From Deltaproteobacteria bacterium (GTDB taxonomy: Bacteria > Myxococcota > XYA12-FULL-58-9), in contig JACRCV010000087.1 of NCBI GenBank assembly GCA_016218825.1, forward strand, positions 1-64,000: DNA of 64,000 nt, in the 5' to 3' direction. Under the pieces are notes generated by a model that searched no databases, was not told the DNA's origin, and saw only the letters and a program-made list of their open reading frames with translations. Shown here piece after piece: positions 1,532 through 58,497 of the stretch. The number at the start of each line of letters is the position of its first letter. Within the stretch, counting starts at the first letter, position 1. The position numbers and the translations under genes are program-made.

Positions 1532-1561
1532 GCGAGCGTGACGGCGGCGGCGCGGGAATCG
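1520..1561 (-). repeat. Palindromic repeat, possible terminator of the 1581-3374 gene
   Basis: CGATTC (1520-1525) and GAATCG (1556-1561) flank a perfect hairpin of GTCACGC-GA-GCGTGAC at 1527-1542. On the minus strand the segment reads GATTCCCGCGCCGCC starting about 20 bases after the stop codon of the 1581-3374 gene. The same core follows three other genes in this window (34545, 57206, 57439). It may act as a terminator or as a repeated extragenic palindrome. Confidence 0.5.
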
Positions 1562-1580: not shown

Positions 1581-3374
1581 TCAATGCCACGCGAGGCACT
1601 TCCCGGCCCGGTCGTCGTTGATGAAGCCGTGGTATCGGCCCATCCAGTACGCGACCAGGAAGTCGACTCCGGGCTGGGCGTCGGCGGCGTCGCCCGGGTC
1701 GTACAGGGTCCACGGGTGATGTTGCCAGAGGAAGGTCCGCACCGGTCGCTCGCCGACGTCGATCGCGGTGTCGTGGTTCGCCTGGTCGGTGCAACCGTTC
1801 GCGTGGGGCATGAAGCGGGCGTCGGCGCGCAGATCGACCGGCCGGCGATAGAGCGGCGGCACCGGGAACTGGCTGACCTGGGTTGCGGCCCCGGTCGCCA
1901 CGGTGGCCGGGACGCCAGGGACGGTGCCGGCGTAGATGAACGAGAAGAAGGCGTTCTTGGTCTTCTCGAACTTCGGCCAGATCGTGTTCTTGAACAGGCC
2001 GAGGACGCGGGCGCTGCGGCCGGGATCGGTGTCGAGCCGGGCGAGGTTGTAGAGCGGCTCCATCATGATGTTGTTCGCGTAGTACGCCTCACCACAGTCG
2101 CTGTTGCTCTGCCACAGGTCGGCGATGTCGAGCCAGTTGTCGATGTTGCCGCCGCGCCCGGTGTTGTGGAGGTAGAAGTCGAGGATGGCGTTGCGCTTGT
2201 CCGCCCACGCCGGTTGGTCGCGGGTGACAAGCAACGCGACCTGGAAGGCTGCCGCGAGCATGATCGCGGAACCGGGTCGCGGGATCGGCGCCGTCGGCAG
2301 CAAGCTGGCGAGGAAGTCCGGTAGTTGGGCTTTCGCTTGGTCGATGATGTCGTACAGGTCGGGGATGAACTCCTGGAACCCCCACATCTCGCCCTCCTGG
2401 GCGCTGGTGTCGACAGCCATGTAGGCAGCGCCGCCGCGGAATTCCCAGGGGGCGGCGACGGCGAACCGCATCTTCACCGTCATGCGGGGCAGCTCGACGC
2501 CGTTGACCGTCAGATCGACGGGGAGGTCGCGCTCGAACATCAGCTGCTCGGCGAGCTCGACGACGTCCTGGCGGATCAGCTCCCGCAGCTCTTCATCGTC
2601 GTCGCCGAGCGCTTCGTACGCCAGCGCGTAGCCGAGCATCACCCCCTGGTACATGTCGCGGCTGATGTGGCCGAGGACCATGTAGGTCGTGTCACCGTAG
2701 GGGACGTCGCAGTGGATGTGCTCGCGGGTGCAGTCCTTGTCGTTTGCGGCGAGGGGCGCGGTCGCGACGTCGGCCGACTTCAGGGCGAAGCGCGACAGCA
2801 GGCCGGGCTGGCCGGCGACGTTGCACAGCAGGTTGAGCGTCCGCACCAGGCCGCGCACACGGGTACGGGCGCCCGGGGAGCCGGTCGCCTTCAGGCGCAG
2901 CGCCTGCGCCGCGAGGTAGGTGCCGGTCCAGAGGGCCGAGTCGTATACGTCGCCGAGCCGCGTCACGGTCTGGTAGGTCGGCGGGTCGCTGAAATAGGGG
3001 GAGCCGACGGCGCCGCCGAGCATCGCCTTGCTGTGGATGAGCTTCTCGTAGGCGCGCGCGCGGTCGGCGACCGAGGTCGCTGGTGTCGAGGGGATGAAGT
3101 TGCCGCTCGCGAGGTCGAGGAGGCCGCAGCTCTGCCCGGAGCCGTTGGTCTGGCCGAGGCGACACTCGTCGCTGCACTCACCGACGCGGCACTCGCCGTT
3201 GACGCAGCCGCTGCCGGCCGGGCAGGTCTCGTCGACCCAGTGCCAGGAGACGCCATCGTCGAGGCAGCTCTTCTTGGCGCGGGCGCCGGTGCAGATGCTA
3301 TCGCCGTGGGGGCCGCACGACGACGGGTGCGCGGGATCGGATGATGTCCCGGACAGTGGGGAAGAGATTGGCAC
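1581..3374 (-). CDS. Secreted-type Cys-rich protein with helical toroid-like domain
   Basis: About 597 residues from GTG 3374; the true start is uncertain. Residues 17-75 hold a Cys-rich module (ICTG, SCLDDGVSW, TCPAGSGCVNGECRVGEC), a pattern found in secreted myxobacterial proteins. The rest (about 100-590) is mostly helical with conserved aromatic and acidic clusters, resembling the (alpha/alpha) barrels of polysaccharide lyases and six-hairpin glycosidases. No catalytic motif can be named, so the activity is unknown. No signal peptide is visible in any of the three frames upstream. The Cys-rich module suggests export, so the 5' end may have been lost or frameshifted near 3340-3420. A promoter-like pair at 3448-3476 puts the transcript start near 3441, which excludes longer frames. 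It diverges from the lipoprotein gene at 3585. Confidence 0.6.
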   Translation of the reverse strand: MPISSPLSGTSSDPAHPSSCGPHGDSICTGARAKKSCLDDGVSWHWVDETCPAGSGCVNGECRVGECSDECRLGQTNGSGQSCGLLDLASGNFIPSTPATSVADRARAYEKLIHSKAMLGGAVGSPYFSDPPTYQTVTRLGDVYDSALWTGTYLAAQALRLKATGSPGARTRVRGLVRTLNLLCNVAGQPGLLSRFALKSADVATAPLAANDKDCTREHIHCDVPYGDTTYMVLGHISRDMYQGVMLGYALAYEALGDDDEELRELIRQDVVELAEQLMFERDLPVDLTVNGVELPRMTVKMRFAVAAPWEFRGGAAYMAVDTSAQEGEMWGFQEFIPDLYDIIDQAKAQLPDFLASLLPTAPIPRPGSAIMLAAAFQVALLVTRDQPAWADKRNAILDFYLHNTGRGGNIDNWLDIADLWQSNSDCGEAYYANNIMMEPLYNLARLDTDPGRSARVLGLFKNTIWPKFEKTKNAFFSFIYAGTVPGVPATVATGAATQVSQFPVPPLYRRPVDLRADARFMPHANGCTDQANHDTAIDVGERPVRTFLWQHHPWTLYDPGDAADAQPGVDFLVAYWMGRYHGFINDDRAGKCLAWH

Positions 3375-33097: not shown

Positions 33098-33136
33098 CCG
33101 ATGGTGCTCGCCGTCGGGCGCATCTATGGCCACCAA

Positions 33137-34537
<1,401 letters not shown>

Positions 34538-34544
34538 CCCCTTC

Positions 34545-34588
34545 TTTTGATTCCCGCGCCGCGGCTGCCGCGGCGCTCCCCACCCCCA
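34545..34588 (+). repeat. Repeat copy and hairpin after the sigma-factor gene
   Basis: TTTTGATTCCCGCGCCGC begins at 34545, eight bases after the stop. It contains a perfect 9-base stem with a CTG loop (34556-34576) and ends CTCCCCACCCCCA. The same string, with the hairpin slightly changed, lies in inverse orientation at 57439-57481. A likely terminator or extragenic repeat. Confidence 0.6.
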
Positions 34589-34617
34589 CCCTTGAATCTT
34601 CTCGAGCCGCGCCGGAT

Positions 34618-34638
34618 CCCGCCCCCGGGTGGGGCGGG
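34618..34638. terminator. Second GC hairpin in the sigma/His-Cys gene interval
   Basis: CCCGCCCC and GGGGCGGG form a perfect 8-base stem with a 5-base loop. It lies between two convergent genes (sigma factor on plus, 34792-35604 on minus) and could slow polymerase from either side. There is no T run. Confidence 0.35.
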
Positions 34639-34791
34639 CAAGACGAGCGTGGCCGCGAAATCGGTCACCAGCCTTTTCGCTTTCACTCGACCCTACTGTC
34701 GCGCCCGCCGGTACCGCAGCGCGGAGGCGAAGCCGCGAGCGCGAGGAACGCAAGAAAGGGCGCGGAACGATCAGCTCACGGCGAGACCGCT

Positions 34792-55516: not shown

Positions 55517-57178
55517 GTGAAGCCGGACTCGGAGCCGTCGGTCACCGTCCTGGTCGCGAAGGTCGGCGGCTACGGCTCGCTGTCGCATCGCGACGAGCAG
55601 CTGACCCTCGAGCTGTTGAACGAGCACCAGCTCACGATCTCCGAGATGCTCGCCGCGCTCGGCGGCCAGAGCATCCAGGCGACGAGCGCCGCGATCGTGG
55701 CGCACTTCGACCACGCCTCGTTGGCGGCAGGTGCGGCGATCGAGCTCATCACCCACATGCGGCGCCGCAACGGCGTGGTCGCGAACGAGCGCCGGCTGTC
55801 GCTGCAGATTGGGATCCACGCCGCCCCCGGCGCGCTGGTGCCGGAGCCGACCTTGCGCGTCGCGCACTCTCTGGCGGGGATCGCGGCCGCGGGCGGCATC
55901 TGCGTCTCGGCGGCGGCCGCCAAAGCGCTCGGCGGTCGTCGGCCGATCTTGGAGCCGATGGGCCTGTCGCGCCTCGACGCTGCGTCGCCACCGCTCGAGG
56001 TGTTGCGCCTCCGCCTGCCGTGGGAACGGCGCGTCGCCCGCGGGCGGCGGTCTTGGGCCCGGGTCGTCACGCAGGTTACGCTCGTCGCTCTCGTGGCGCT
56101 CGGCGTCGGCCTGAGCGTCGCGCTCTACCGCGCCGGTCACCTGCCCCGACCCGCTGCGGTGGCGGTCTCGGCCCCGGTGCCCGTGCTCGCGGCGCCGCCA
56201 CCGGCCCTTGCGGCGGGGACCGCGGCTGCGACCTGTCCGGAGTCACTCAACAAGGGTCTGATGCTCTTGCGTCATGGGTCGGCCGCAGATCTCGTCGCGG
56301 CCGTCGCCCTGTTGCGCGGCGCGGCCGATGCCGCCCCCGCGTGCGCCGCCGCCCACCTTGGGCTCGCCGAAGGGTACGTACGCCTCGCTGTGAACGGCAC
56401 CGACCGCAGCGCGAGCTTCGAGCGCGCCGACGCCGCGGTCTCGAGAGCGTTGGCGTTGGCAGACGACGTCGCCGCCGCGCACGCGCTCGCCGCGACACTG
56501 GCGCGCCGGGTTGATTTCGACTGGAGGCGCAGCGAGGCCTCCCTGCAGAAAGCCCTGGAGATCGCTCCTGACGACCTGGCGGCCCATCTCGAGCGCGCCC
56601 TGCTGTTCACGACCCTCGGCGAGCCGGTCAAGGCCATGACCGAGGTCGAGAGCGCCCGCGCCTTGGATCCGCTGTCGGCTGCTACTCTCACGACGGTGGC
56701 GCAGATCGGCAATCTGACGCGGAACCCGACCATCGCCGTCGACGCCGCGCGGCAGGCGCTCGCGCTCGATCCGCTCGGGGCCGCGGCCACCGCCGAGCTG
56801 GCGCTCGCCCACCTCCACCTGGACAAGCTCAGCGAGGCGTCGGCTCTCGCACACCGAGCCGCAAAGCTCGCGCCCGACAGGCCGCGCTACGCCGGGATCC
56901 TCGGGGTGGCGCTGGCCCGCGCCGCTGAGACTTCGCGGGCGCGGGAGGTCCTGGCCACGCTCACCAACCACAGCGCCGACCGTCCCGAGGCCGCGACCAG
57001 CATCGCCTGGATCTATGCCGCCCTGGGCGAGACCGACGAGGCCGGCGGCTGGCTGATGAAGGCCTGCGAAGCCAAAGACGACGGCGCCTTGTACTTGCGG
57101 CTCGACCCGCTCTTCGACAGCCTTCGCCCAACCGCCGGGTTCGCGAGCGCCGAAGCCTGCATGAACCTACGTCGGTGA
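55517..57178 (+). CDS. Degenerate class III cyclase-domain membrane protein with TPR repeats
   Basis: 553 residues from GTG 55517, twenty bases after the rocD stop. Residues about 8-165 match the class III adenylate/guanylate cyclase fold (VTVLVAKVGGYGSLSHRDEQL, SIQATSAAIVAHFDHASLAAGAA, LQIGIHAAPG, HSLAGIAAAGGICVSAAAAKAL). The metal-binding Asp of the first strand (normally D-I-x-G-F/Y) is replaced: the strand reads AKVGGY. The second Asp is also missing. It is therefore probably not an active cyclase. One membrane helix at about 185-208 (VVTQVTLVALVALGVGLSVAL) is followed by about 340 residues of TPR helical repeats outside the membrane. A receptor or scaffold is likely. Confidence 0.7.
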   Translation: MKPDSEPSVTVLVAKVGGYGSLSHRDEQLTLELLNEHQLTISEMLAALGGQSIQATSAAIVAHFDHASLAAGAAIELITHMRRRNGVVANERRLSLQIGIHAAPGALVPEPTLRVAHSLAGIAAAGGICVSAAAAKALGGRRPILEPMGLSRLDAASPPLEVLRLRLPWERRVARGRRSWARVVTQVTLVALVALGVGLSVALYRAGHLPRPAAVAVSAPVPVLAAPPPALAAGTAAATCPESLNKGLMLLRHGSAADLVAAVALLRGAADAAPACAAAHLGLAEGYVRLAVNGTDRSASFERADAAVSRALALADDVAAAHALAATLARRVDFDWRRSEASLQKALEIAPDDLAAHLERALLFTTLGEPVKAMTEVESARALDPLSAATLTTVAQIGNLTRNPTIAVDAARQALALDPLGAAATAELALAHLHLDKLSEASALAHRAAKLAPDRPRYAGILGVALARAAETSRAREVLATLTNHSADRPEAATSIAWIYAALGETDEAGGWLMKACEAKDDGALYLRLDPLFDSLRPTAGFASAEACMNLRR

Positions 57179-57188
57179 CCGCGTCTCT

Positions 57189-57261
57189 ACCGTCTTCGCT
57201 TTGATTTGATTCCCGCGCCGCGGTTGCCGCGGCGCGGGAGTCAAGGACGGACGAAGACGGT
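57189..57261. repeat. Nested palindrome of 73 bases, repeat copy downstream of the TPR gene
   Basis: Outer arms ACCGTCTTCG (57189-57198) and CGAAGACGGT (57252-57261) enclose a very strong inner hairpin (57206-57244): an 18-base stem including one T-G wobble, with a TTG loop. The inner arm begins TTGATTCCCGCGCCGCGG, the same core as the repeats at 34545 and 57439. It lies 10 bases after the TGA of the TPR gene and could terminate transcription in both directions. Confidence 0.7.
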
Positions 57262-57438
57262 CTATGGCACGCAGCACTTGGTCGGATCTGCGCCCCTCGC
57301 CCCACTCGGGGGCGGGCACCGAGCAGCTGGCTTTGCCAGTGCGCGGTGCGGGGGCACGGGGGGACGCAGAGCCGGCGCTCCACCTTCGGCGTGGTCCGCG
57401 GACGGAGTGCGGGCGGGCGGTCCCCCCGCTAGGTTGGC

Positions 57439-57481
57439 TGGGGGTGGGGAGCGGCGCCGCATCGGCGGCGCGGGAATCAAA
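57439..57481 (-). repeat. Inverse repeat copy downstream of argF
   Basis: On the minus strand TTTGATTCCCGCGCCGC, a 7-base stem with a CGAT loop, then CTCCCCACCCCCA. It starts 17 bases after the argF stop. With the copy at 57206 it encloses about 280 bases as inverted ends. The space between (57262-57438) holds no gene. Confidence 0.6.
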
Positions 57482-57498
57482 GGCAGGTGCAGAGCCCT

Positions 57499-58497
57499 CT
57501 AGCGCCGCCGGGCTCGCTTGGCCTTGCCCTTCACGGGCTTGCGGCTGCTGCGTGCCGGCGCGCTCGACCCCTTGGCCTTCGTCCTGTGCCCGAGCAGGAA
57601 GAGCATCAGCGCCTTCTGGACGTGGAGGCGGTTCTCGGCCTGGTCGAACACCGCCGACTGCGGCCCGTCGATGACCTCGGCGGCCACCTCCTCGCCCCGG
57701 TGCGCCGGGAGGCAGTGGAGGAAGATGGCGTCCTTCTTGGCGCGGCTCATCAGGGCGCGGTCGACCTCGAAGCCGCGAAACGCCACCTTGCGTTTGTTGG
57801 CCTCGGTCTCCTGGCCCATCGACGCCCAGACGTCGGTGTAGACCGCGTCCGCCCCTTCGACCGCGGCCAGATCGGCCGTGACCTCGATCTTGGCGCCGGT
57901 CGCTGCGGCCTCCTGCTGCGCGGTCTGGACGATCTCCGGCCGCGGTTGGTAGCCGCGCGGCGCGATGACGCGGACGTGCATGCCGTAGCGCGCCCCGGCG
58001 AACATCAGCGAGTTCGCGACGTTGTTGCCGTCGCCGACGAACACCAGCTGCCGGCCGCGGGCGGCGCCCTTGTGCTCGACCACCGTCAGCACGTCGGCGA
58101 GCGCCTGGCAGGGATGCAGCAGGTCATCGAGGCCGTTGATAACCGGCACCCGACTGGAGCCGGCCAACGCTTCGACCTCGTCGTGGCCGAAGGTGCGGAT
58201 CATGATGATGTCGAGGTAACGCGACAACACCTTGCCGGTGTCGGTGATCGGCTCGCCGCGCCCGAGCTGGATGTCTTTCGCCGACAAGTAGATCGCGTGC
58301 CCGCCGAGCTGCAACATCCCGGACTCGAACGACACCCGGGTCCGTGTCGAGCTCTTCTGGAAGATCATCGCCAGCGTCTTGCCGACGAGAGCATGGGCAA
58401 ACGCCTGCGGCGTGTGCTTCACCTTTGCCGCGAGCCGCAGCACCGCTTCGTGCTCGGCGGTGGAGAAGTCGAGATCGGACAGGAAGTGGCGCACCAT
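57499..58497 (-). CDS. argF: Ornithine carbamoyltransferase
   Basis: 332 residues from ATG 58497; GGAG lies 12 bases upstream. A carbamoyl-phosphate domain with SSTRTRVSFE and HPCQALAD, and an ornithine domain with ADAVYTDVWASMGQE and HCLPAHRGEE. These motifs distinguish it from aspartate carbamoyltransferase. It joins ornithine and carbamoyl phosphate to form citrulline in arginine synthesis. Unusually, the last about 26 residues after LGHRTK are Lys/Arg/Ser-rich (SSRKPVKGKAKRARRR) and absent from normal enzymes of about 305-310 residues. The gene diverges from the JAMM gene by 88 bases. Confidence 0.93.
   Translation of the reverse strand: MVRHFLSDLDFSTAEHEAVLRLAAKVKHTPQAFAHALVGKTLAMIFQKSSTRTRVSFESGMLQLGGHAIYLSAKDIQLGRGEPITDTGKVLSRYLDIIMIRTFGHDEVEALAGSSRVPVINGLDDLLHPCQALADVLTVVEHKGAARGRQLVFVGDGNNVANSLMFAGARYGMHVRVIAPRGYQPRPEIVQTAQQEAAATGAKIEVTADLAAVEGADAVYTDVWASMGQETEANKRKVAFRGFEVDRALMSRAKKDAIFLHCLPAHRGEEVAAEVIDGPQSAVFDQAENRLHVQKALMLFLLGHRTKAKGSSAPARSSRKPVKGKAKRARRR

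Follow-up and report, generated by a model that had tools for sequence, protein, structure and literature searches.

TA-flanked, non-coding repeats at stop codons of a Myxococcota genome: a probable family of non-autonomous mobile elements that restore TAG on insertion

Why does the palindromic core GATTCCCGCGCCGC recur shortly downstream of stop codons, and what brought it there? A preliminary description of the window, i.e., the whole 64-kb stretch of DNA that was analysed, had placed the core after the stops of four genes, always on the coding strand, had taken the copies at 57206 and 57481 as the inverted ends of one 280-base unit, and had proposed a mobile element tamed as terminators. 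Using an exact pattern scan, four exact copies were recovered from the window, each following a gene stop at the distance listed in Table 1 and each located on the coding strand of the upstream gene, as described. At three of the four sites the flanking genes converge, and the strand rule within the window is therefore weaker than it seemed. The copy at 1547, which keeps the core without the remainder of the unit, is probably degenerate. For the unit after the sigma factor gene, a covariance-model match was obtained at 34517-34588 (E 2.2e-14); its right end is decayed and its limit there approximate.

Table 1. Core copies, units and their parts in the window (positions 1-64000).
Feature	Position	Strand	Remarks
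Exact core GATTCCCGCGCCGC	1547-1560	-	20 nt after stop of gene 1581-3374(-); remaining unit unrecognisable
Exact core GATTCCCGCGCCGC	34549-34562	+	11 nt after stop of sigma factor gene 33101-34537(+)
Exact core GATTCCCGCGCCGC	57208-57221	+	29 nt after stop of TPR gene 55517-57178(+)
Exact core GATTCCCGCGCCGC	57465-57478	-	20 nt after stop of argF, 57499-58497(-)
Unit after sigma factor gene	34517..34665	+	Core 34549-34562, hairpin 1, spacer, hairpin 2 at ~34618-34638
Unit A, after TPR gene	57188..57264	+	Short variant with one long hairpin, TA to TA
Unit A hairpin, TTGATTCCCGCGCCGCGG-TTG-CCGCGGCGCGGGAGTCAA	57206..57244	+	Inverted repeat, 94% complementary
Unit B, after argF	57263..57501	-	Full unit plus internal secondary repeat, TA to TA
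Unit B core and hairpin 1, GATTCCCGCGCCGCCGATGCGGCGCCGC	57451..57478	-	
Unit B secondary repeat, GCCAACCTAGCGGGGGGACC...	57317..57438	-	Limits approximate
Unit B hairpin 2, GCCCGCCCCCGAGTGGGGCGAGGGGCGC	57290..57317	-	In other copies, segment entered by several ISs

In the 6.54-Mb Myxococcota genome from which the window derives, 99 exact copies of the core were counted and none of the reversed control pattern; the copies are therefore not due to chance. A covariance model, for which the best 150 candidates were scored, recognised the family at 148-149 places at least, and following removal of duplicates by flank, at least 155 family loci were obtained. Among relatives, the same model gave seven weak matches in a congener, the only one reached, and no match in 13 others. 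With a broader model, matches among 195 genomes of the phylum were confined to the source genome and the congener. An exact pattern scan of named genomes returned Myxococcota bacterium RA.bin128, which may be the congener, and a MAG labelled Proteobacteria, ZH-Oct18-46. In Rfam searches of the window and of eight family loci, no match reached the gathering score, and over the units sub-threshold matches alone were obtained.

A typical unit is ~125 bp long, runs from TA to TA, carries no genes and contains two hairpins, the core being hairpin 1. A left arm of ~20 nt is followed by hairpin 1, the conserved spacer CTCCCCACCCC and hairpin 2; the unit ends in a right arm, which is paired with the left one. 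Eight young, near-identical copies match one another from TAGACCGTTTTCG to GAAGACGGTCTA, and divergence starts right outside the TA; this limit of identity at TA...TA speaks for a target duplication. Terminal inverted repeats of ~10 bp are clear in the young copies and weakly recognisable in most older ones. Agreement of the inverted ends in at least 8/10 positions was observed at TA in 10 copies (345 pairs tried) vs 39 for nine other dinucleotides together (31,805 pairs), corresponding to a 24-fold enrichment of TA. Of the targets rebuilt by joining the flanks, six read CTAG and one each TTAG, ATAG, CTAT and GTAC. In the fold of a 126-nt copy (z -4.7), the ends are paired, TGATTC:GGATCA forms an inner helix and two hairpins are present. 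Compensatory changes were observed in both hairpins, with 97% of cells paired and 50 double changes vs 13 in shuffles. These changes show that the hairpin structure is maintained.

The cores facing each other between the TPR gene and argF belong to two such units. Unit A has the inverted ends ACCGTCTTCG / CGAAGACGGT and an RNA fold z of -9.8; for unit B this value is -2.9. Unit A extends from TA (57188-57189) to TA (57263-57264) and unit B from the latter to TA (57500-57501), so that one TA is common to both while each keeps its own inverted ends. The first TAG of unit B is the argF stop codon (57499-57501), and unit B thus begins inside that stop. A single 280-bp MITE bounded by the cores at 57206 and 57481 would account for the 87% complementarity of the 31-nt arms at 57205-57235 and 57451-57481. 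Each core, however, forms a hairpin inside a unit bounded by TA ends of its own; units of this construction stand alone at many loci, and other adjacent pairs with one common TA were found at L063 and L081. We regard one such long element as extremely improbable; what had been described as its two ends are the hairpins of two complete head-on units. A secondary palindromic repeat of the GCCAACCTAGCGGGGGGACC...GGTCCCCCCG class, as in unit B, was seen at the same position in at least eight further copies (L061, L067, L027, L057, L019, L063, L039 and L077). The copies that share it have different outer arms, an indication that modules were exchanged among copies or that the repeat inserted site-specifically.

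Genes around the loci were predicted by means of a simple coding model built in-house, and 509 background gene pairs were drawn from the loci around model matches. The family is intergenic at 150 of 155 loci and lies inside predicted genes at the other five. At the 114 loci with both neighbours known, 60 copies were convergent, 26 sense, 17 antisense and 11 divergent. Convergent junctions are thus more frequent than among the background adjacent gene pairs (60/114 vs 95/509, p 1e-12). Between co-directional genes, 26 sense and 17 antisense copies do not differ significantly (p=0.22), and the coding-strand rule, true of the four window copies, does not extend to the genome. For copies cut by a contig end, the upstream gene was on the same strand in 30 of 33; these copies leave room for a mild sense bias of the family.

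In 106 loci, a same-strand stop is found no more than 60 nt from the left end of the unit. The start of the core peaks sharply at 19-20 nt after the stop (47 loci), and the TA of the unit therefore falls inside the stop codon. Where the stop is 15-21 nt away, it is TAG in 49 of 59 cases vs 150 of 443 element-free genes (p 4e-13), and the base before such a TAG is C or T in 44/49 vs 57/150 in element-free genes (p 7e-11); the background counts are those of a first pass, kept as they were beside a flank-wise recount. Contact with a stop was left-only in 25 cases and right-only in 22. It is the stop codon, and not the direction of transcription, that governs placement. Position genome-wide is strongly non-random, in favour of the preliminary description, and strand is close to random, against it. 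Among CTAG sites in 166 kb, 13 are coding, 16 are at stops and 27 lie elsewhere between genes. Within the window, CTAG is strongly under-represented (19 observed vs ~184 expected from base composition).

We consider it probable (roughly 0.7) that the repeats constitute a new family of non-autonomous, TA-flanked MITEs that target YTAR/CTAG, restore TAG on insertion and are nearly harmless at gene ends. A transposase acting in trans, presumably of the DDE type, would insert the unit at a TA, preferably in YTAR/CTAG, after which TA would stand on both sides. With G as the first base of the unit, TA plus G restores the TAG stop, and at the other end C plus TA can restore the stop of a convergent gene. 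CTAG is scarce in the coding DNA of this GC-rich genome and common at TAG stops. Because the stop codon is rebuilt, an insertion at a gene end would be nearly harmless and hence kept, selection being the presumed cause of the gene-end bias; the position at stop codons would follow from the CTAG/YTAR preference together with this tolerance. Every insertion would also recreate CTAG-like sites at the unit ends, which would explain why copies are found side by side, in tandem or, like units A and B, head-on.

Eighteen genes with an element at the stop were sought in the congener. Eleven gene ends were found, all 11 without the element, and in these orthologues the protein stops at the aligned end or at most three residues away; the comparison was made at 55-95% protein identity, a range at which an empty site, and thus the TA duplication, is not seen at base level. 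In the congener, argF is without the element and has a different neighbour. Mobility, as proposed earlier, is borne out by the terminal inverted repeats, TA at both ends, the YTAR preference, amplification in one genome, the empty congener ends and the adjacent or tandem copies; restoration of the stop and covariation of the hairpins are likewise directly supported.

Candidate partners were sought in the source genome. No IS630 partner (IS630 DDE_3) was found in this fragmented assembly, from which collapsed multi-copy ISs are absent. A DDE_Tnp_1 gene on contig C85 was considered, and no family ends were recognised around it. No autonomous copy, i.e., element ends without the core, was found in the fetched loci or at 20 contig starts. 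Spread of a REP/BIME family by a REP-associated tyrosine transposase (RAYT) would agree with palindromic, extragenic repeats in ~150 copies, with three Y1_Tnp genes in the genome and with the known role of REPs as IS targets (PMC1525189). At the three Y1_Tnp loci, however, no flanking family copy was present, and a unit of ~125 bp with inverted ends and TA is unlike the 20-40-bp palindrome with a GTAG-type tag (PMC3733652), which makes this origin highly unlikely. At L089 and L090, RAYT-like Y1_Tnp genes carry short repeats near their ends (GGGGTCAGACCC or GGGGTCA..GGTACC) that are unrelated to the family.

As a MITE family, the units resemble ERIC/IRU, Correia/NEMIS and RUP, the TA-flanked bacterial MITEs, in being non-coding, with inverted ends and TA at both ends (PMC2229807). 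Like ERIC, Correia and RUP, they measure 100-200 bp, have many intergenic copies and give a strongly folded transcript, in this case a predicted one; the optional internal insert has its counterpart in the 107/155-bp Correia forms (PMC2229807). They differ from these three in their unrelated, very GC-rich sequence and in the YTAR target at stop codons, and while RUP has IS630-Spn1 (PMC2229807), an IS630 partner of the present family was not found. SPRITE and BOX of Streptococcus pneumoniae likewise occur in excess at convergent junctions and close to gene 3' ends (PMC3049150). BOX supplies the stop codon of 36 genes, and SPRITE has been proposed as a co-opted terminator (PMC3049150). In contrast to both, the family has no U-tract, a defined TA target, inverted ends and a precise placement at stop codons, and it belongs to a different phylum. 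In the literature on elements that regenerate host stop codons, no direct precedent was found beyond BOX repeats. The target preference is that of IS5 of E. coli, which inserts at Py-T-A-Pu and most often at CTAG (PMC5493358). IS5 duplicates four bases, whereas TA alone is common to both flanks of the family, and no IS5-type gene was linked to it.

The placement at stop codons, the excess at convergent junctions and the compensatory changes could also be those of a domesticated 3'-end module, the hairpins of which would terminate transcription or shield mRNA 3' ends; copies would be kept for the upstream gene, and mobility would be ancestral or incidental. The likely 5' end of a group II intron, located directly after hairpin 1 in two copies (L005 and L058), is in line with such a module, since class C group II introns sit after terminators (PMC8919778). 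Neither hairpin, however, is followed by a U-tract: the next bases are CTCCCCACC or GGGGCG, and the terminator scan lists no site there. Against the module, too, are the orientation counts between co-directional genes, the near-equal left-only and right-only contacts with stops, and the congener orthologues, which manage without the element. Enrichment between convergent genes is also a property of parasitic pneumococcal repeats and IS elements (PMC3049150). A taming as terminators was therefore not corroborated, the position at stops following from CTAG/YTAR preference plus tolerance, and a domesticated module seems unlikely to us.

That this alternative is kept alive is mainly due to ZH-Oct18-46, a genome with a median amino-acid identity of ~41% to the source genome (16 proteins). 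In 19 copies read from it, the two hairpins are arranged in the same frame, and 15 of these copies follow a same-strand stop, at distances of -2 to +39 nt and in most cases -2 to +12; at -2, it is the TGA of TGATTCCC that serves as the stop. Stem letters vary, with 96% of cells still paired, and no TA arms were recognisable in the 19 copies. No other evidence speaks as strongly as these copies for a significance of the hairpins in their own right, and hairpins at stops without TA arms, unexplained by plain MITE biology, count against the MITE reading. Possibly, then, although we do not favour it, the two-hairpin unit is a gene-end device of distant bacteria, a structured 3'-end signal at the stop that lacks a U-tract, and here became cargo of a stop-inserting, stop-rebuilding transposon that gave many genes a new 3' end. 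An effect of the unit on transcript 3' ends is possible. At L323 and L334 of ZH-Oct18-46, two hairpin units face each other as the ends of a ~600 bp repeated stretch between convergent genes, an arrangement resembling the 280-bp unit of the preliminary description.

Other elements land in the unit. The ends of ISs and of the likely group II intron were searched genome-wide, giving 32 matches, all at or near contig ends; nearly all of their distinct flanks resemble the family, and most end at hairpin 2, in either orientation. The ends had been chosen for adjoining the family, and the result thus covers the landing of these elements among the ISs of the genome. At contig ends (L162-L191, L226, L350, L355 and L356), at least three IS types abut hairpin 2 in either orientation, hardly differing in the bases at which they join it: one Tn5-like, one IS110-like by its start and one of no assigned type. 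One IS end encodes a Tn5-type DNA-binding domain (PF14706, E 3e-8), and the flanks of the Tn5-like IS fit a 9-bp duplication, CCCGAGTGG. REP sequences are likewise palindromic landing sites of several IS types (PMC1525189), whereas here it is hairpin 2 of a longer TA-flanked unit that is entered. Group II domain V was recognised at four contig ends (L192-L195), one beside a family copy and two beside the related hairpin GGCGGGCGCTTCGCGCCCG. We infer that these ends and the intron 5' end belong together; the 5' fragment of the supposed intron had no match in Rfam. At three contig starts (L342, L349 and L354), a repeated end, CGTCGTCGACACGATGCTC...GGGTTTTTACGGGCGAATCAA, is joined at TTGATTC to flanks that are unrelated, and may represent another element with the same TTGATTC edge.

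Taken as MITEs, the family suggests a simple route to high copy number for a selfish element in a gene-dense, GC-rich genome: a target that is rare inside genes and common at stops, CTAG, combined with rebuilding of the stop on insertion. The family also makes gene ends available to other elements as landing sites: the hairpins are occupied by several IS types and by a likely group II intron, and many contigs of the source assembly break at hairpins so occupied. Should the hairpins shape transcript ends as well, 3' ends throughout the genome would be rewritten by the element.
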